Shown here: in pieces, positions 1-7,713 of the stretch
Position numbering within the stretch: the first letter of the stretch is position 1
Layout: each line of letters opens with the position of its first letter
Source of the DNA: Candidatus Latescibacterota bacterium
Lineage (GTDB): Bacteria; JAAXHH01; JACQVL01
Assembly (NCBI GenBank): GCA_016209865.1
Contig: JACQVL010000281.1
Coordinates: 1 to 9,803 of the forward strand
Reading direction: 5' to 3'
DNA length: 9,803 nucleotides
The notes under the pieces: model-generated
Database searches by the model: none
The model's input: the letters and a program-made list of their open reading frames with translations, nothing else
Told to the model about the DNA's origin: nothing
Translations under genes and position numbers: made by a program

Positions 1-798
1 GAGCGAGGTGGAGGGCCGGCGGGAGGGCGAATCACGTTCTACGTGTCAGAGACGCTGAAGGGGCGAAAAGGCGAAAGGGGTAAAAGGCGAAAAGGGGGAC
101 GGCAGGGAACACAGCGGGTGATCCTGTGGGGCATTGAAGACAGGGTGGAACGCTGGCTGGCGTCGCACGGGGTGCATGGCGAGCGCTTGGAGGATTCCCC
201 GTCGGATCACAGCCAGGTCATCTTAGTCGGCGACCTGTCGGACACGACGGCGGACAGAGACGCATGGATCGCCCTGATGCAGCGGGTTGCTCAAGGCAGC
301 GTGGCGGTTTTCCTCTCCCCCTTAGCGTTCAAGCGTGGGGAGGATGCGGTCGGCTGGCTGCCGCTGGCGAACAAGGGGAAGTGCTACGCGTTCCACGACT
401 GGCTGTACCACAAAGAATGCGTGGCGAAGACGCATCCGATCTTCGACGGGCTGCAGGCGAAGGGAATCATGGATTGGGACTACTACGGCCAGGTCATCCC
501 GCGCGACATGTTCGATGGACAGGACACGCCCGATGACGTCGCCGCGGCGGCGTTCGCGCTCGGCTATCCCTGTCCAGGCGGCTACGCCTCCGGGGTGCTG
601 GTCAGTTCGTACCGGTTTTGTGCGGGCCGGTTCGTGCTCAACACCCTGCGTGTGCTGGAGCATCTCGACGCCCATCCGGCGGCGGACCGACTCTTGCTCA
701 ACATGATTGCTTATGCGGCGCGATTCGTCGATGAACCGGTCGCTCCGCTTCCTGAGGATTTTGAAGAGCGACTCAGGGGAATTGGATACGTTCAATAA
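1..798 (+). CDS. C-terminal part of a large glycoside-hydrolase-like protein (GATase-like domain), 5' end outside the window
   Basis: The frame is open from the first base and ends at TAA 796-798, giving 265 visible residues. A GTG at 43 could be read as a start but has no Shine-Dalgarno at usable distance, and the residues before it (RITFYVS) read like protein, so I treat the gene as cut by the window edge. After a Lys/Arg-rich stretch the sequence forms an alpha/beta fold: QRVILWGIEDRVERWL, a hydrophobic strand VILVGDL, then SVAVFLSPLAF, a motif-rich middle (FHDWLYHKECV, DWDYYGQVIP, GYPCPGGYASG) and a C-terminal helix RLLLNMIAYAARF. A strand-rich flavodoxin/GATase-like domain ending in this kind of helix is common at the C-terminus of large bacterial glycoside hydrolases (beta-galactosidase-type and GH2-like), where it is structural rather than catalytic. 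No catalytic domain is visible here, so the hydrolase label is inference. It is the first of five co-directional genes. Confidence 0.5.
   Translation, partial: ERGGGPAGGRITFYVSETLKGRKGERGKRRKGGRQGTQRVILWGIEDRVERWLASHGVHGERLEDSPSDHSQVILVGDLSDTTADRDAWIALMQRVAQGSVAVFLSPLAFKRGEDAVGWLPLANKGKCYAFHDWLYHKECVAKTHPIFDGLQAKGIMDWDYYGQVIPRDMFDGQDTPDDVAAAAFALGYPCPGGYASGVLVSSYRFCAGRFVLNTLRVLEHLDAHPAADRLLLNMIAYAARFVDEPVAPLPEDFEERLRGIGYVQ
62..95 (+). repeat. 8-bp tandem repeat inside the coding region
   Basis: Four consecutive 8-bp units can be read: GGCGAAAA (62-69), GGCGAAAG (70-77), GGGTAAAA (78-85) and GGCGAAAA (86-93), followed by GG. The 11-mer AAAAGGCGAAA occurs twice exactly, 16 bases apart. Eight is not a multiple of three, so gain or loss of one unit would shift the reading frame. 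The repeat encodes the Lys/Arg/Gly-rich linker between the upstream part of the protein and its C-terminal domain. Confidence 0.7.
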
Positions 799-805
799 AC
801 ACTGG

Positions 806-825
806 CTTCCCGCTTGCGCGGGAAT
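806..825 (-). repeat. dRS3-like palindromic intergenic repeat
   Basis: Eight bases after the stop codon of the first gene, TTCCCGC (807-813) pairs perfectly with GCGGGAA (818-824) across a 4-base loop TTGC. Read on the - strand the element is ATTCCC, eight bases, GGGAAG, one base from the dRS3 consensus ATTCCC-N8-GGGAAT known from Neisseria; related short palindromes (GTCATTCCCGC and similar) are scattered through many bacterial genomes. The stem is GC-rich but not followed by a U-run, so termination could at most be weak. Its sequence explains the non-coding look of the 69-base gap between the first two genes. Confidence 0.65.
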
Positions 826-867
826 GACAACAGAACCATTTGACAGACAGAGGTGAAAGGGATTCTG

Positions 868-1656
868 ATGTCCACTCAACGTTGCGTTCGGATCGGTATG
901 ATCCAGGCCGTTCCCAAGAAGTGGGAGGTCGATGAAAACTGGGCGATGTTTGAAACACTCGTCCGCCGCCACGCGGGCGATCAGGTCGACCTCTTTCTCG
1001 CCCCGGAGTGCTTTCTGGACGGGTACGCGGCGTCAGAAGTGGATTGGACGGTCGAGCGATTTGCGGAAGTCGCCCAGAACCTCAACGACAGTCCGTACAT
1101 CGACCGGCTCAAACGCCTGGCCGCGGAGACGCGCGCCCACATCGTGTTCGGCTTCACGGAGCGCGTGGACGATCGTTTCTACAACTGCGCGGTGCTGGTC
1201 GGTCGGGACGGTCACATCCAGGGCACGTACTACAAGACGCACCTCCGGGATCACGACAAGCGGTTCGCGCCGGGGATCGACCTCCCCGTCTTCCACCTGG
1301 ATTGCGGGGTGATCGGGGTCGTCATCTGCGCGGACAGGGTCTGGCCGGAGACGATCCGGGTGCTGCGCGTGAAGGGCGCAGACATCGCCCTCGTCCCTGC
1401 CTACGGCGGATGGGGCCTGGACAACGAGTGGCGGATGCGCGTACGCGCGCACGAGAACGGGATGTTCGTCTGCTTTGATCATCCCCACGTGGCGTTGATC
1501 GCCAACCCACGGGGCGACGTCGCGGCGAAGTTGCAGTCGAACGTCCCCGGTCTGTTGATCTACGATATGGACCTGAGCGAAGTGACTACCGCGTACCTCC
1601 AGGACCGGCGTCCCGACCTGTACGGGATTCTCGGAGACCCGAGCGTGCGGCTCTAA
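868..1656 (+). CDS. Carbon-nitrogen hydrolase (nitrilase superfamily amidase)
   Basis: This 262-residue protein has the length and layout of a single-domain nitrilase-superfamily hydrolase, cytoplasmic enzymes that cleave amides, carbamyl groups or nitriles through a Cys-Glu-Lys triad. All three residues are visible: Glu47 in FLAPECFLDGY, Lys123 in GTYYKTHL and Cys154 in GVVICADRVWPE. A second Glu present in many members, a few residues after the Lys, is not evident; Asp130 in LRDHDKRFAPG lies near that place. I start at ATG 868 because AAAGG (856-860) lies 7 bases upstream; an in-frame GTG at 853 would add five residues but has no better site. The gene lies 69 bases after the previous stop and 67 before the transporter, all on the same strand. 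Substrate cannot be told from sequence; members are N-carbamoyl amidases, omega-amidases, beta-ureidopropionases and aliphatic amidases. There is no signal peptide. Confidence 0.88.
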   Translation: MSTQRCVRIGMIQAVPKKWEVDENWAMFETLVRRHAGDQVDLFLAPECFLDGYAASEVDWTVERFAEVAQNLNDSPYIDRLKRLAAETRAHIVFGFTERVDDRFYNCAVLVGRDGHIQGTYYKTHLRDHDKRFAPGIDLPVFHLDCGVIGVVICADRVWPETIRVLRVKGADIALVPAYGGWGLDNEWRMRVRAHENGMFVCFDHPHVALIANPRGDVAAKLQSNVPGLLIYDMDLSEVTTAYLQDRRPDLYGILGDPSVRL

Positions 1657-1711
1657 TATCGAACGGTGCGTCGGAATCTCGGAGGGCAAGAAGATCGCCG
1701 TGTGTCGTAAC

Positions 1712-1719
1712 GAAGGAGG
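1712..1719 (+). promoter_or_regulatory. Strong ribosome binding site of the transporter gene
   Basis: GAAGGAGG lies 4 bases before ATG 1724. It places the start there rather than at the in-frame GTG 1700, which would put this site inside the coding sequence. Confidence 0.75.
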
Positions 1720-1723
1720 AATC

Positions 1724-3214
1724 ATGCCTCAAAAGGAAGCCGCCTCTGACTCATCCTCATCGTGTATCCAGGTTCCTGAGCTCGACGGTTTCTACACCCA
1801 GCCGCTGTCTGCGGGCAAGCTGTACAGACTGGTGGGGTCGTTCGGGCCGGCGGCAGTGATCGCGTCCCTGTCGATCGGGGCAGGGGAGACGATCATGGTG
1901 ACCGGAGTGGGCGCGTGGGCGGAATACGGCCTCCTCTGGCTGGTGCTGTTGAGTGTGCTCACGAAGGGCGTGTTCGTCACCTACCTACTCGGACGGTACA
2001 CCGCCGCCAGCGGCCAGCACATCGGCCCGCGCCTCCTCCAGCTCCCCGGCCCGCGCGGCTGGCTGCTTCACGCGATCGTCTGGATGGAACTGATCGCCAT
2101 GACCCTGGCGCTCGCCGCCGTCGCCAAGCCCTGCGGAAACTTAGTCGTCTACCTGCTCCGCGCCTCCCTGCCCGGCAGTGTGAGTCACGCGACCTGGGAA
2201 AACCTCTGCACAACCCTCTTCCTGGCCGCCGCGCTTATCCTGAGCCTCTATACCTCCTATATGACCCTTGAAAAACAACAGATCGTCATCTGCGGCATCT
2301 TAGTGGGCGGGACGATCCTGTCGACGTTCATGATCGGCCCCAGGGTCGTTGACGCCTTAGCAGGGACGTTTCGTTTCGGCCACCTGCCGCCGGCGCCGGA
2401 GTGGGCCCCTCCAGCGGTGCGCAACGACTACTGGCTCAACGTAGCCACTGTGTTCGGCTACGTCGGGAGCACGGTCAGCCCTTACATCGCGTACGCCAAC
2501 TGGACCAGCATCCGCGGGTTTGGGCTGTCCGGCCATCCCAACATTCAAGACATTCGTGCCCGCGCGGACGCCAGCGCGCGCATCGATTACCTCCCCGACG
2601 ACCCGGCGGAGGCGCGCCGCCTGCGGGCGCTCTTGTCGCCGCTGCGCTGGGACGTGGGCATGGGCGCCGTCGTGCTCTTCATCGTCACCGCCGCCTTCAT
2701 GATGGCCGGGGCGGTCGGACTCTACCCGCGACACCTGTCCCTGCCCGGCAACGCGTTCGACCTCCTGACCAGGCAGGGGTACATCTGGGAACACCTCCAT
2801 CGCGGCCTGGTGCCGGTCTACTACGTGGCCGTTCTCGCCGCCCTGTGGGGCACGTTAGCCACCATCCCGGAGGCGGAGACGCGGGTGGCGCATGAATTCT
2901 TCAGCGCGATCTGGCCGCGGTTTGCGTCGTTCCCGTTCCGTGGTCTGCAGGCCATCATCGTCCTCTGGTTTCTCGTCGCTTCCTGCTTCTGGATCTGGAG
3001 CGGGGTGAGTTTCGACCTGTTGACTCAGATCGTGGCGCTCCTGGCGACCAACCTTGGGGTGGCGCTCATTTGCGTGGCCGCCCTGTACCTCAACTTCAAA
3101 CTGCCGCCGCGCTACCGCACCCGCTGGTGGATGCTGGCCGGCGGCGTGATCTCGGCGCTCATCCTGTTCCTGGCGTTCGCCGGGAGCGCGGTGGGGCTGT
3201 TGCGGAAACTATAA
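1724..3214 (+). CDS. Nramp-related APC-fold membrane transporter lacking the metal-binding motifs
   Basis: This 496-residue polytopic membrane protein shows about eleven hydrophobic segments (roughly residues 38-62, 64-90, 113-135, 160-180, 188-205, 238-262, 312-334, 362-384, 409-428, 432-455 and 469-492), the usual Nramp number. The opening GSFGPAAVIASLSIGAGET resembles the LGPG-type start of Nramp helix 1. In true Nramp proteins helix 1 carries DPGN and helix 6 carries MPH, and both hold the divalent metal. Here the helix-1 position reads IGAGET (51-56) and the helix-6 position reads GSTVSPYIAYANW (248-260), so neither metal motif is present. Automatic pipelines would probably call it a divalent metal transporter; I infer a different, perhaps organic, substrate. 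A hydrophilic loop rich in Asp and Arg (about 270-305) separates helices 6 and 7. Its stop is 10 bases from the next gene's ATG, so the two are probably co-transcribed. Confidence 0.8.
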   Translation: MPQKEAASDSSSSCIQVPELDGFYTQPLSAGKLYRLVGSFGPAAVIASLSIGAGETIMVTGVGAWAEYGLLWLVLLSVLTKGVFVTYLLGRYTAASGQHIGPRLLQLPGPRGWLLHAIVWMELIAMTLALAAVAKPCGNLVVYLLRASLPGSVSHATWENLCTTLFLAAALILSLYTSYMTLEKQQIVICGILVGGTILSTFMIGPRVVDALAGTFRFGHLPPAPEWAPPAVRNDYWLNVATVFGYVGSTVSPYIAYANWTSIRGFGLSGHPNIQDIRARADASARIDYLPDDPAEARRLRALLSPLRWDVGMGAVVLFIVTAAFMMAGAVGLYPRHLSLPGNAFDLLTRQGYIWEHLHRGLVPVYYVAVLAALWGTLATIPEAETRVAHEFFSAIWPRFASFPFRGLQAIIVLWFLVASCFWIWSGVSFDLLTQIVALLATNLGVALICVAALYLNFKLPPRYRTRWWMLAGGVISALILFLAFAGSAVGLLRKL

Positions 3215-3218
3215 GGAG
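3213..3218 (+). promoter_or_regulatory. Ribosome binding site overlapping the transporter stop codon
   Basis: AAGGAG begins inside the TAA stop of the transporter (3212-3214) and ends 6 bases before ATG 3225. The overlap suggests translational coupling of transporter and oxidoreductase. Confidence 0.7.
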
Positions 3219-3224
3219 AACACC

Positions 3225-4280
3225 ATGCCCAAGCGGTACAGAGTCTGTCTGATCGGATGCGGGCGGATGGGCGCGACGATCGATGATGAGGTGCGCGATC
3301 ATCCGCACAGCTATCTATGGCTGCCATACTCGCACGCGGCGGGCTACATGGCGGTCGAACGGACGGAACTGGTCGCGGTCTCGGACGCGATCCCCGAAAA
3401 AGTCGAGACCATCCGCCAGCGATACCACGTTCCGTCCGGCTACACCGACTACCGGGAGATGATCGAGCGGGAACAGCCGGACATCGTCAGCATCGCCACC
3501 CGGCCGGCGACGCACGCGGAGATGACCGTCTTCGCCGCCGAACACGGGGTGAAAGGCATCTACTGCGAAAAACCTCTGTGCGGGTCGATGGAGGAAGCGG
3601 ACGCGATGGTCGGTGCCTGCGAACAGTACGGCGTCAAGTTCAACTACGGAACCCAGCGCCGCTACATGCCGCTGTATAAAAAGATGCTGGAGATGATCGC
3701 CAACGGCGAACTGGGGGACATCCACTGCGTGATCGGTCATTGCGGGGTGGGATCGGCGCTCTGGGGGCATACGCACACGTCAGACATGCTGATGTTCTTA
3801 GCGGGCGACCCGGAGATCGACTTCGTGCAGGGGGCGATCGTGGCGAAGGAGGAGGACTGGGAGGACAACCGGTTGAACACCGACCCGGGCATCGCCAACG
3901 GGTACGTCCGGTTTAAGAACGGTATCCATGCTTACATCGTGGCGGGCGGCGGGTATGAGTTCGAGGTCAGCGGCACGAAAGGCAAACTGCGAACCCTGAA
4001 CAACGGCATCCTGGCCCAGTGGCGCCGTGTTGAAGAGCCGTGGCACATCCTGAAAGAGGTCCCCTTCCCTGATGTTCAGCATGCGAGCGGGACGGTCAAA
4101 GGGATTGAGGACATCGTCGAGGCGCTGGACACCGGGCGCGAGACGCAGGGGCCGGTTCACTTAGCCCGCCGCAGCCAGGAGATGCTCATGGGGTTCATCG
4201 AGTCCCACCGGCGGGGCGGGACGCGCGTGACCCTGCCGGTAGCGAACCGGAGCCTGTACGTGGGCAGGAAGGATTGGTGA
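3225..4280 (+). CDS. Gfo/Idh/MocA family NAD(P)-dependent oxidoreductase
   Basis: The protein has 351 residues, normal for this family of soluble sugar, inositol and amino-sugar oxidoreductases. An N-terminal Rossmann fold is clear: VCLIGCGRMG (7-16) binds the dinucleotide, and Asp54 at the end of the second strand (AVSDAIPEK) favours NAD over NADP. TRPATH (92-97) and the hallmark EKP (115-117, in YCEKPLCGS) follow. The C-terminal alpha/beta domain has HTSDMLMFLAG (184-194), matching the HxxD-type motif that holds the catalytic His. Bacterial members oxidise or reduce hydroxyl groups of cyclic polyols or sugars; the exact substrate is unknown. The second strand of the Rossmann fold comes after an unusually long insert (residues 17-48, rich in His and Tyr), which is common among uncultured-lineage homologues. 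It lies between the transporter and the ceramidase-like gene, 10 bases from each. Confidence 0.92.
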   Translation: MPKRYRVCLIGCGRMGATIDDEVRDHPHSYLWLPYSHAAGYMAVERTELVAVSDAIPEKVETIRQRYHVPSGYTDYREMIEREQPDIVSIATRPATHAEMTVFAAEHGVKGIYCEKPLCGSMEEADAMVGACEQYGVKFNYGTQRRYMPLYKKMLEMIANGELGDIHCVIGHCGVGSALWGHTHTSDMLMFLAGDPEIDFVQGAIVAKEEDWEDNRLNTDPGIANGYVRFKNGIHAYIVAGGGYEFEVSGTKGKLRTLNNGILAQWRRVEEPWHILKEVPFPDVQHASGTVKGIEDIVEALDTGRETQGPVHLARRSQEMLMGFIESHRRGGTRVTLPVANRSLYVGRKDW

Positions 4281-4290
4281 GCACTGCGCG

Positions 4291-5586
4291 ATGAAACTGG
4301 GAACGGGAAAAACCGTGATCACGCCGCCAATCGGAACCCCGCTTGCCGGATATGGCTTCCGTGATCACGGAGCAGAAGCGATACTGGATGATTTAGAGGT
4401 CCGTGCGCTGTGGTTTCAGGAGGGCGATGACCCGCGCCAGGCGGCCTGTCTCGTCACGGCTGATCTCATCGGGTTCGGTCCTGCGCTGACGACAGAGATT
4501 CGCACGGCGCTCACTCAACGCATCGGCATTCCACCTGAGCGGGTGCTGCTCACGGCCAGTCACACGCATTCCGGCCCACAGACGGATGAAAGCATGGTGG
4601 GGTGTGGAGCGATAGTCGCCGGCGTTGTAGCGACCGTCCGTGAGCGCATCTTAGAGGCCGTGAAGACAGCTTCTCACGACCTGCATCCGGTGACGCTGTG
4701 CGCCGGTTGTGGCCGTTGTGAAGGCTATGCCATCAATCGCCGGCTCGTCAAGGACGGCCAGGTCCTCTTCGTACCCAACCCTGATGGAGTACACGACGAT
4801 GTAGTCATCGTGATCGCCTGTCATGATGCGGCAAGTGGTGCGGTCCGGGCGGGGCTGTTTCAGTTCACGTGCCATCCGACCCTGATGGGCGATTACCGCA
4901 TCACCGCTGACTATCCGGGCGCAGCCCGGCGTTACGTGGAAGAAGCCCTCGGTCATGGTGCGGTGGCGGCGTTCCTCCCTGGTTGCTTCGGGGATGTCCG
5001 TCCGAACTGTACCGTCATCGGCGGAGGGAAATTTCGTCGAGGACAACCTGACGACGTTGCGGCGTTCGGCGCCGCGTTAGGAGAAGAGGTGGTACGCGTC
5101 GTTCGAGGAGACACACAACCGCTGAGTCCTCGACTAAACGGTCAAGCTACAACGCTCGATCTTCCCCTTGCCCGGCATCCGGGCCGTGAGGAACTGGAGC
5201 AGCTCCAGAAAACCGGAACCCCGGTCGAACAGGAATGGGCTTCACGACTCTTGTCGAAGCCGTTTTCGATGACGCGCCCCCTCACGTTGCAGCGCATCGA
5301 CCTCGCATCTGAGGCGCGTCTCATCGCCATGGGAGGCGAAGTCTGCTGCGAGTACGGTCACTTCATCAAAGGGCTTCAACAGGATGCCTTTCTGATCCCG
5401 GTCGGGTACTCGAACGGGTTTGTTGCATACATCCCGACCGCCCGCATCTTCTCAGAAGGCGGGTATGAGCCGGATGGCTCCTGTCTCTACTTCGGCCTCC
5501 CAGGGCCATTACAACCCGATATCGAAGGGATGATTCACGCAGAGATTCGCAAAATCATGGAAGCTGCTGCGTCACTTCCCCTATGA
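4291..5586 (+). CDS. Neutral/alkaline ceramidase-like hydrolase, N-terminal domain only
   Basis: The 431-residue protein matches the catalytic domain of neutral/alkaline non-lysosomal ceramidases, zinc amidases, but lacks their C-terminal immunoglobulin-like domain and any signal peptide, so it should be cytoplasmic. Typical opening motifs are present (GTGKTVITPPIGTPLAGYG). Likely zinc ligands are His91/His93 in SHTHSGP, His195 in FTCHPTLMG, Glu350 in GGEVCCEYG, and a Tyr in the YIPT or EGGYE region (Tyr380 or Tyr392). INRR (148-151) is also a family signature. True ceramidases carry the nucleophile Ser in the hexapeptide GDVSPN; here it reads GDVRPN (234-239), Arg237 replacing Ser. True ceramidase activity is therefore doubtful; a related hydrolase activity on another substrate is more likely. 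ATG 4291 has no clear Shine-Dalgarno and lies 10 bases after the previous stop, which suggests translational coupling. Codon use looks somewhat richer in T-ending codons than in the upstream genes. Confidence 0.85.
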   Translation: MKLGTGKTVITPPIGTPLAGYGFRDHGAEAILDDLEVRALWFQEGDDPRQAACLVTADLIGFGPALTTEIRTALTQRIGIPPERVLLTASHTHSGPQTDESMVGCGAIVAGVVATVRERILEAVKTASHDLHPVTLCAGCGRCEGYAINRRLVKDGQVLFVPNPDGVHDDVVIVIACHDAASGAVRAGLFQFTCHPTLMGDYRITADYPGAARRYVEEALGHGAVAAFLPGCFGDVRPNCTVIGGGKFRRGQPDDVAAFGAALGEEVVRVVRGDTQPLSPRLNGQATTLDLPLARHPGREELEQLQKTGTPVEQEWASRLLSKPFSMTRPLTLQRIDLASEARLIAMGGEVCCEYGHFIKGLQQDAFLIPVGYSNGFVAYIPTARIFSEGGYEPDGSCLYFGLPGPLQPDIEGMIHAEIRKIMEAAASLPL

Positions 5587-5593
5587 GCCCCCG

Positions 5594-7468
5594 TTACTCA
5601 GCTCCAGTCAACGAGACGACCTGCTGTGACACACCAGCTCGATTGTCTCTCGGTTTCCGGGGCAATCGTACCGTGAATGTGGTTCCCTGTCCCAGCTCGG
5701 ATTTGACGTCGATCTGTGCCTGATAGGGTTGCAACAATCGGACACAGGATGACAGGCCGAGTCCGGTCCCCGTGGGCTCTCCCGGACGTTCAGTCCCGGC
5801 CACGGGTTTCGTCGTAAAGAATGGGTCGAAAATGTGTGCCAGGTGTTCGGGAGGAATCCCGCAGCCCGTATCGCTGATTTCCACGGAGATGGTGTCGTCA
5901 TCGTACCGAGTCGCTACGATCAAGCGTTTCTGCGGGGTATCGTGCATCGCATCGAGCGCGTTGCGGACGATGTTCATGAGGCTCTGGCTGAAATCACCGT
6001 ACACCCCCTCGATCTCCGGCAGGTCGTCGGCGAGACGGTAGTTTTTCTCGATCGTGTGTTTAAACTCCAAGTCAGCTTCGAGAAACAAGAGCTCTTCCCG
6101 GATGAGGTCATTGAGGTTCAGCAAGCGCCGTTCCTGCTCCTGCTCCCGACGGCTTTTGACCAGGGTATTCTCGATAATCGCCTCGACGTGCTGACATTTT
6201 TTCAGGATGATGTTGAGATACGGTAAGTCAGAGTTGGCGTGCTGGAGGAGTTCTGCATACCCCCGAATGACAGTGATGGGCCCAAGCAGGTTGTGAGTGA
6301 CCCCTTGTACAACCGCACCGATCGCGGAGAGTTTGGCTTGCTGGAGCAGCTCCAACTCCAGTTCCCGCTGTGTCTGCGCGAGCTGTTTCTGTTCGGTCAA
6401 ATCCCAGACGATCCGCTGGATGACACAGTGAGTTCCGTACCGGATCGTTCCAAGGCTGACCCCCGCGATGAACGGCTGGTCGCCTTTCCGTACGTGAAGC
6501 AGCTCCTCGAACAGAGCACCTGCCTCGGTTCGTGCCCGTTCCCACAGGTGGTGTGCCCGGTCCGACACATCATCGGGATGGAGCGCCCAGACGGACATCT
6601 GACAGAGTTCGTCCCGTGTATACCCGGTCAATCGCTCCGCCTCACGGTTGACATCGACGATGAGGCCGGTGTCCGGGTCAGCGATAAACATCGCATCGAT
6701 CGCCTGCTCGATCGTCTGTCGGTACCGTTCTTCTGATGCGCGGAGCTCGGCGTCCGCCTCTTGCCGTTGCACGGCCATGCGATTGATGTACAGGGCGAGC
6801 GTCCCGATTTCATTCTCGGACAGGACGGGCAAGCGAACGCTCAGGTCCCCTGCGCCGATCTTCTCAACGGCTTCGACCACCGTCTTCAGCGGGTGAACGA
6901 CGAGCCAGCCCATCAGAAAACGTAAGACCACCGCCACAATCACTATCGTCACGATGCCGATCGCCGCCGTCGTGAGGGCATTCTGACGAATCCGGTTGAA
7001 CTCTTCCTCCATCGTCATCGTCACACGGAGGACCCCGACAGGCTCTCTGAGGGGTTGGAGGTAGGTCAACCAGCGGTCGTGCTCTTCATAGTAGAGCACG
7101 GGGGCTCGGATCGTCATCGCTTTCCACAGGTAGACTTGACTGACCGGTCGTCTCACAAGCCCGGTAGGATTGGTCACGTCACGGCCGTACTCGTCGAGGA
7201 ACTGCAGATTGACGGTCGGGTTCGCCATCTGCTGCCGGGCAATCAGAGCGGCCATCATCTTCTGGAGATCGGCGGGCGTGAGGAGTGTCCGCTGCAGTCC
7301 GAGCGACATCGCCGCAGCCCAGGCCTCACACTCTCGCTCAGCCTGTTGCCGTGCGTGTTTCGTCTCACGGGCTGCGTTCAGGATCAGAAACGCACCGAAC
7401 CCAACCCCGATGGGCAGAACAATCCAGATCGTCAGGGTCGTGGCTAACCGATGAGGCACTCCGCGCAT
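5594..7468 (-). CDS. Membrane sensor histidine kinase with HAMP and PAS domains
   Basis: This 624-residue inner-membrane sensor kinase has, in order: a first membrane helix (about 10-30), an extracytoplasmic region (31-165), a second helix (168-190), HAMP (188-240), PAS (246-360, with NREAERLTGYTRDEL), a dimerisation/phosphoacceptor helix and an ATPase domain. The H-box reads GVTHNLLGPITVI with His392; the usual Glu after His is Asn393. The N-box is SLMNIVRNALDAM (497-509), the G1 box DTGCGIPP (533-540), the F-box FDPFFTTK (547-554) and the G2 box GTGLGLSS (567-574), so ATP binding looks intact. The architecture recalls NtrB/ZraS-type kinases. I start at ATG 7468, 5 bases after GAAGGAG, rather than the in-frame GTG 7489. 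No response regulator is adjacent, so its partner is elsewhere. Its stop is 7 bases from the convergent hydrolase stop, and it overlaps no other gene. Confidence 0.9.
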   Translation of the reverse strand: MRGVPHRLATTLTIWIVLPIGVGFGAFLILNAARETKHARQQAERECEAWAAAMSLGLQRTLLTPADLQKMMAALIARQQMANPTVNLQFLDEYGRDVTNPTGLVRRPVSQVYLWKAMTIRAPVLYYEEHDRWLTYLQPLREPVGVLRVTMTMEEEFNRIRQNALTTAAIGIVTIVIVAVVLRFLMGWLVVHPLKTVVEAVEKIGAGDLSVRLPVLSENEIGTLALYINRMAVQRQEADAELRASEERYRQTIEQAIDAMFIADPDTGLIVDVNREAERLTGYTRDELCQMSVWALHPDDVSDRAHHLWERARTEAGALFEELLHVRKGDQPFIAGVSLGTIRYGTHCVIQRIVWDLTEQKQLAQTQRELELELLQQAKLSAIGAVVQGVTHNLLGPITVIRGYAELLQHANSDLPYLNIILKKCQHVEAIIENTLVKSRREQEQERRLLNLNDLIREELLFLEADLEFKHTIEKNYRLADDLPEIEGVYGDFSQSLMNIVRNALDAMHDTPQKRLIVATRYDDDTISVEISDTGCGIPPEHLAHIFDPFFTTKPVAGTERPGEPTGTGLGLSSCVRLLQPYQAQIDVKSELGQGTTFTVRLPRKPRDNRAGVSQQVVSLTGAE

Positions 7469-7470
7469 CG

Positions 7471-7713
7471 TCACTCCTTCGTCCCGCACGTGATCGGGAC
7501 GGACAGCGCCGTCTCAACCGGCAGCAGACAGCGCTGGTCGTCGCAGGCCTGGTAGGTGAGAGTCGCCCGAAGTATCCCTGACTGGCCCGGCCGGACCTCC
7601 GGCTTCAGACGAAGGATGCCCCGGATGGTGACCTCGCCCTGGTAGACGGAGAGCGGGCGGTCAGCAAATCCCAACATGACGGCGGTTCCGACTGGATATG
7701 AAATAGGGTTCAT
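7471..7713 (-). CDS. Short DsbD-N-like domain, probably a remnant of a thioredoxin-family protein
   Basis: This frame encodes 80 residues. The end reads TLTYQACDDQRCLLPVETALSVPI, matching the signature strand of DsbD N-terminal-type domains (a Tyr-Gln-x-Cys followed by a second Cys and Pro), here with Cys57 and Cys62. Such domains normally follow or precede a thioredoxin fold or a membrane reductase. Nothing of that kind precedes it: an in-frame TGA lies at 7717-7719, three bases upstream of ATG 7713, and no Shine-Dalgarno is visible. No signal peptide is present although these domains normally act outside the cytoplasm. I therefore favour a 5'-truncated remnant, though a small intact gene cannot be excluded. 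The stop (7471-7473) lies 2 bases before the kinase start and the 3' end contains the kinase ribosome binding site, so translation through it may feed the kinase. Confidence 0.55.
   Translation of the reverse strand: MNPISYPVGTAVMLGFADRPLSVYQGEVTIRGILRLKPEVRPGQSGILRATLTYQACDDQRCLLPVETALSVPITCGTKE
7474..7480 (-). promoter_or_regulatory. Ribosome binding site of the histidine kinase
   Basis: GAAGGAG on the - strand ends 5 bases before ATG 7468 and lies within the last codons of the DsbD-N-like frame. It decides the kinase start and indicates coupling of the two frames. Confidence 0.7.

Follow-up and report, generated by a model that had tools for sequence, protein, structure and literature searches.

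Which substrate is moved by a carrier of the Nramp superfamily whose gene lies in line with those of a carbon-nitrogen hydrolase, a Gfo/Idh/MocA oxidoreductase, and a ceramidase-like hydrolase? The question is raised by a contig of a Candidatus Latescibacterota bacterium (JACQVL010000281.1, here C235), the entire 9803 bases of which form the window analyzed and which belongs to a metagenome-assembled genome of 3.75 Mb (G000) that is 83% complete. A first-pass annotation had proposed that the four genes, designated B (carbon-nitrogen hydrolase), C (transporter), D (oxidoreductase), and E (ceramidase-like hydrolase), form a module that imports and dismantles an amide- or N-acyl-bearing sugar- or polyol-like compound. 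The explanation that we favor is narrower and tentative, and we place it somewhat below an even chance: C, D, and E, but not B, would form a short co-transcribed cassette of limited conservation in one candidate phylum, and C would import a polyol-, cyclitol-, or sugar-like solute that is used by D and perhaps by E. Nramps are regarded as transporters of metals, and the label "divalent metal transporter" is routinely given to them; the name of the NCBIfam family matched by C is of the same kind. If orphan clades of this superfamily carry inositol- or sugar-like solutes, many of these annotations are wrong.

The carrier and its metal site

Profile similarity places C in the Nramp superfamily (PF01566, broadly defined). 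C matches the NCBIfam family Nramp_1 (NF037982) with 52.1 bits, the cut-off being 50, and has no Pfam match, PF01566 included, even at E values of up to 1; PDB sequence searches returned no match, whether C by itself or alignment A1 served as the query. In hhalign comparisons, the profile of C was linked to its GxGE relatives (E value of 4e-102, with the paralogue C107 present in both profiles), and the chain continued to GAGD relatives (1.5e-18) and then to canonical Nramps (1.7e-8), the alignment to the canonical carriers comprising 255 columns at a probability of 95%. The D and N of the canonical DPGN motif in transmembrane segment 1 (TM1) and the M of the MPH motif in TM6 align to G52, E55, and S252 of C, of which TM1 reads GAGE as compared with DPGN and TM6 reads S249-T-V-S252-P-Y as compared with A-x-x-M-P-H. 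C thus has neither the signature of canonical Nramp/SLC11 proteins, namely DPGN and MPH as used in PMC10185341, nor the DxxG-TxxA/T signature of the NRMT Mg2+ transporters (PMC8806188), the corresponding residues of C being GxxE and SxxS.

The phylogeny is in agreement with these residues. In a maximum likelihood tree of 59 rows, C groups with the GxGE carriers, which are sister to the GAGD carriers (100/99), and the canonical, NRMT, and GxGS carriers are found on the other side, the TM1 motif largely tracking the clade. C is located outside the canonical clade (MntH, DraNramp, ScaDMT) with full support, although it shares their superfamily. It resembles NRMT proteins (EleNRMT, CabNRMT; PMC8806188, PMC4072509) in that both diverge at the TM6 methionine, but NRMT proteins retain the TM1 aspartate, whereas C branches elsewhere and carries GxxE. 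On residues and tree, C was therefore rejected as a canonical Nramp or an NRMT, and the view of the first-pass annotation that the transporter is a noncanonical Nramp-like protein holds. Among the PF01566-type proteins with a readable TM1 in the 16 genomes of the phylum, i.e., the window genome and 15 relatives, all are of the orphan type and none has DPGN. As judged from sequence, C is a carrier of an orphan clade of the superfamily that has lost the residues of the divalent-metal site. The literature describes an "orphan" group of PF01566 that is an outgroup to Slc11, is distinct from NRMT, and lacks the metal (Mn) and proton features of Slc11 (PMC9606685, PMC10606218); by description, C as well as its GAGD and GxGE relatives would belong to this outgroup, and the passages of these papers that deal with it give neither a substrate nor a gene context.

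Gene contexts of orphan and canonical carriers

The clearest indication of an organic substrate comes from the sister GAGD carriers. In all four genera of the phylum that were read, the GAGD carrier adjoins Gfo/Idh genes (loci in Table 1). The gene order is Gfo, xylose-isomerase-like, GAGD carrier, Gfo, IolD, and IolE-like in genome G003, and GAGD carrier, Gfo, IolD, and IolE-like in G013. The IolD proteins score 808 and 813 bits, at a curated cut-off of 715, and the IolE-like proteins remain below theirs (174 versus 290). These loci are inositol-type operons in which a carrier of the Nramp superfamily occupies the transporter's place, and they suggest a concrete substrate candidate. They share the neighborhood of Gfo/Idh, isomerase, IolD, and IolE-like genes with the known myo-inositol clusters (PMC9430895), whereas the window contains neither iolD nor iolE. 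The text of that survey of iol clusters does not mention Nramp, and a literature search on Nramp in connection with inositol catabolism found nothing relevant.

Similar genes accompany carriers closer to C. Immediately downstream of the GSGE paralogue of the same genome (L045, G000:C107, 3628-5928) is the gene of a xylose-isomerase-like TIM barrel protein, and in another phylum a GSGE carrier (L153) is grouped with SDR, FAA hydrolase, and enolase-superfamily genes. Overall, the neighbors of orphan carriers include Gfo/Idh, xylose-isomerase-like, and sugar-acid genes. When the 25 commonest Pfam families among neighbors were compared, canonical and NRMT carriers were associated with Fe_dep_repress (4), FeoA (4), and MgtE_N (2), and the orphan carriers outside the phylum with AP_endonuc_2 (3), GFO_IDH (2), and SGL (2), as well as sulfatase and SSF; Fe_dep_repress, FeoA, and MgtE_N are absent from the families listed for the latter.

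These data also bear on the idea that C has kept the transport of a divalent cation or Mg2+, with E55 as a possible participant, and supplies metal-dependent enzymes such as the Zn-type hydrolase E. E retains zinc-ligand motifs, and C remains a member of the superfamily, above the NF037982 cut-off and within reach of canonical Nramps by hhalign. Furthermore, an Nramp-related protein of the outgroup branch that lacked an Mg riboswitch was apparently still a transporter of Mn (PMC4072509). Yet C carries G, E, and S at the positions of the metal ligands D, N, and M, a combination that matches the signature of neither canonical Nramps nor NRMT proteins (PMC8806188), and no metal regulator occurs among the listed neighbor families of orphans, in contrast to the DtxR/MntR-type repressor, FeoA, and MgtE genes seen for canonical and NRMT carriers. 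We consider metal supply improbable.

The contexts favor an organic solute as the substrate; the case is clearest for the GAGD carrier and extends to C through their kinship. The proposal of the first-pass annotation that the carrier imports a polyol- or sugar-like compound is hence backed by the TM1 and TM6 residues, by phylogeny, and by the orphan contexts, including an inositol-type operon in the phylum; the substrate itself we infer. In a wider sense, the GAGD and GxGE carriers may represent a clade that moves organic polyols or sugars rather than divalent metals, with myo-inositol or a derivative as the substrate of the GAGD carrier of this phylum, a possibility that we regard as less likely than not. 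If it is correct, this clade is an extant sister group of the Nramps that move metals and is informative on the origin or loss of the metal site, and the evolution of that site from LeuT-fold carriers of organic solutes becomes testable via living sister clades.

In addition, Nramp-related carriers with GTGS or GPGS in TM1 were found in other phyla (L174, L175, L177-L182, L184-L187), where they form two clades of the tree; some of them adjoin sulfatases, symporters, and sugar genes.

Conservation of the gene set

Collinearity of the four genes on one strand was confirmed, as were the 10-base spacing and overlapping translation signals of C, D, and E noted in the first-pass annotation. Same-strand runs are common, and the informative part of the arrangement is the 10-base junctions, which span C-D-E only; this suggests that C, D, and E are probably co-transcribed. 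B is separated from C by 67 bases and is conserved beside it in none of the relatives, and C has its own AAGGAGGA directly upstream of its ATG. Two adjacencies recur, each in one other genome only. In G001, which represents another family of the order, contig C614 ends within the C gene, at residue 456, and contig C250 opens with residues 464-496 of C, i.e., its last 33, followed by D after 28 bases; the C-D adjacency therefore recurs. In G011, an E orthologue (58% identity) directly follows D (73%), so that the D-E adjacency recurs as well; C is at a contig end in this genome, its downstream side being beyond the contig. D orthologues, at 69-73% identity, were found in G001, G011, and G013 only. 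The evidence weakly supports C-D-E as the conserved cassette.

The same cannot be said of the complete set. That B, C, D, and E act jointly in the uptake and breakdown of a sugar or polyol with an amide group agrees with the collinearity of the four genes and with the locus L133 (G276:C40, 3933-5710), in which the gene of a B relative (37%) and a same-strand Gfo/Idh gene overlap. However, no B orthologue was found in the nine relatives searched most deeply (best match, 33%), the wider sample of 288 genomes likewise contained no orthologue but only two relatives of B, at 38-42%, the B-C gap comes with a separate ribosome-binding site, and E lacks the ceramidase serine. The four-gene module was rejected on two grounds, the lack of a B orthologue in the relatives searched and the location of C, which mostly lies in other contexts; it is not a conserved system, and a joint function of all four genes is highly improbable. 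Of the module first envisaged, B must be dropped, and what stands are the recurring C-D and D-E pairs. At least three of the four families were found side by side only in the window.

Several observations weigh against the C-D-E cassette and its organic solute. C has an orthologue in 16 of 16 genomes of the phylum, one per genome and with 60-64% identity, but in 13 of the 15 relatives it is without an adjoining B, D, or E; transporter homologues mostly in other contexts had been named beforehand, in the first-pass annotation, as the finding that would refute the module, and on this count the four-gene version is refuted. The next conserved gene downstream of C encodes serine hydroxymethyltransferase (SHMT, glyA) in all 10 loci with enough flank, which are those of G013 and nine genomes of genus g3 (L019-L022, L024-L028, L066). 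An enolase-superfamily gene lies a few kilobases beyond SHMT in these 10 loci, and a PHP gene is found upstream on the other strand wherever that side is readable, in g3 together with a Tat-type metallophosphatase; B, D, and E are absent next to C in these 10 loci and likewise in three more loci of g3, of which about 1.5 kb was read. The g3 genomes possess C, but no D orthologue was found in them. The neighbor contrast is likewise limited: Gfo or isomerase genes are present within two genes of 0 of 19 canonical and 0 of 7 NRMT-like carriers, but outside the phylum they accompany only 3 of about 31 orphan carriers, a difference to 0 of 26 that is not significant, and the genomes concerned contain many such genes, so that their gene content confounds the comparison. 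The AlphaFold2 model of C is poor (predicted local distance difference test, pLDDT, of 48.5; predicted template-modeling score, pTM, of 0.48), and neither a LeuT fold nor a site geometry is drawn from it. E55 of C could still bind a cation.

The first of these points also agree with the view that C, D, and E are accidental neighbors, i.e., independent members of gene-rich families, the only steady partner of C being the downstream glyA of other lineages. G000 has at least nine strong Gfo/Idh matches and four E-like genes, so that chance adjacency is not rare; D orthologues of other phyla (G054, G199) are in unrelated contexts, and E homologues of other phyla have a Gfo neighbor in only 1 of 18 loci. 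Against chance stand the two independent orthologue adjacencies (C-D in G001 and D-E in G011), each in a genome with several thousand genes, and the 10-base junctions with overlapping signals of the window. We regard accidental neighborhood as a serious possibility, albeit one to which we give less credence than to the cassette.

For the favored C-D-E cassette, we infer which class of substrate is moved and in which direction, and what D and E catalyze, as follows. C would take up an organic solute resembling a polyol, cyclitol, or sugar through the alternating-access mechanism of LeuT-fold carriers, and the GxGE break of its TM1 would be part of the substrate site. D, as a Gfo/Idh/MocA enzyme that depends on NAD(P) and is of the inositol/glycoside dehydrogenase type, would oxidize a hydroxyl of the solute, and E, as a metal-dependent hydrolase, may hydrolyze one of the solute's bonds, be it acyl, ester, lactone, or amide.

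Enzymes and organization of the window

D contains the N-terminal Rossmann domain of the GFO_IDH_MocA family (76.7 bits, cut-off of 24) with CEKP at 114-117. Its best NCBIfam match is IolG (TIGR04380), at 86.6 bits versus an equivalog cut-off of 355; D was thus rejected as an IolG inositol 2-dehydrogenase, and it does not exceed the cut-off of any specific dehydrogenase.

B is a member of the CN_hydrolase superfamily (PF00795; 122 bits, cut-off of 23.2) with its catalytic triad present. The earlier assignment of two of the enzymes to amide-cleaving families proved too strong in the case of E. E matches the N-terminal domain of Ceramidase_alk (42.4 bits, cut-off of 32.1) and retains the HTHSG, CHPT, GE, and Y motifs, which we take to act as zinc ligands. 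GDVSPN, of which the Ser is presumably the ceramidase nucleophile, is replaced by GDVRPN in E and by GDIRPN in its G011 orthologue, and other aligned homologues also lack the Ser. This hexapeptide is conserved in neutral ceramidase (PMC5874051). Compared with neutral ceramidases (2zws, 4wgk), E has the N-terminal fold family and the zinc-ligand motifs but is shorter and without this Ser; at 34.6 bits versus a cut-off of 1200 for neutral ceramidase, it was rejected as a ceramidase, and its description as amide-cleaving is unproven since the serine is missing. No signal peptide is evident in its sequence.

One of the 18 E loci, L118 (G016:C21:1-8000) of another phylum, encodes in one direction a Gfo/Idh protein, an E-like hydrolase, an amino-acid permease, and DeoC-like, aldolase-like, and alcohol dehydrogenase-like proteins, the last three named by eye from sequence; it is an independent, analogous cluster of a Gfo, a ceramidase-like protein, and a carrier. 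In APC amino-acid permeases (PF13520), such as presumably that of L118, TM1 is broken at a small GxG motif; by analogy only, C has this type of break in common with them.

Table 1. Features of the window and loci of GAGD carriers in the phylum
Feature	Position	Strand	Description
ORF A	1..798	+	Open reading frame (ORF) without known family; 5' end off the contig
Hairpin repeat between ORF A and B	806..826	+	TTCCCGC-TTGC-GCGGGAA, then TGAC
B	868..1656	+	262 amino acids (aa); carbon-nitrogen (nitrilase superfamily) hydrolase; triad E47-K123-C154
C	1724..3214	+	496 aa; predicted orphan-clade Nramp-superfamily carrier; TM1 G52-A-G-E55, TM6 S249-T-V-S252-P-Y
C-D junction	3207..3227	+	AGGAG overlaps the TAA stop of C (TAAGGAGAACACCATG); 10-base gap
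D	3225..4280	+	351 aa; Gfo/Idh/MocA oxidoreductase; E115-K-P motif
D-E junction	4274..4293	+	GGTGA overlaps the TGA stop of D; 10-base gap
E	4291..5586	+	431 aa; short neutral/alkaline-ceramidase-like metal hydrolase
GAGD locus L137 (G003:C8:56600-67700)	2940-10373		
GAGD locus L136 (G013:C179)	1227-6575		
GAGD locus L134 (G000:C202)			
GAGD locus L135 (G001:C158)			

ORF A, which is on the same strand and ends 69 bases upstream of B, has no family match and no PDB match and is probably not part of the unit. The hairpin of the 72-base gap between A and B (z of -2.8 for this gap) likely marks the upstream edge of the unit; its form recurs on other contigs of the same genome and at some other loci. 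Scanning of the + strand between B and E found no promoter- or terminator-like site. Within ORF A and near the contig end, positions 40-110 are a low-complexity purine-rich stretch (gggcgaaaaggcgaaaggggtaaaagg...), possibly the real 5' limit of this gene. At the other side of the unit, E and a histidine kinase gene are convergent, with seven bases between them, and a small DsbD_N-like ORF that scores below the Pfam cut-off (7471-7713) overlaps the start of the histidine kinase gene on the - strand.

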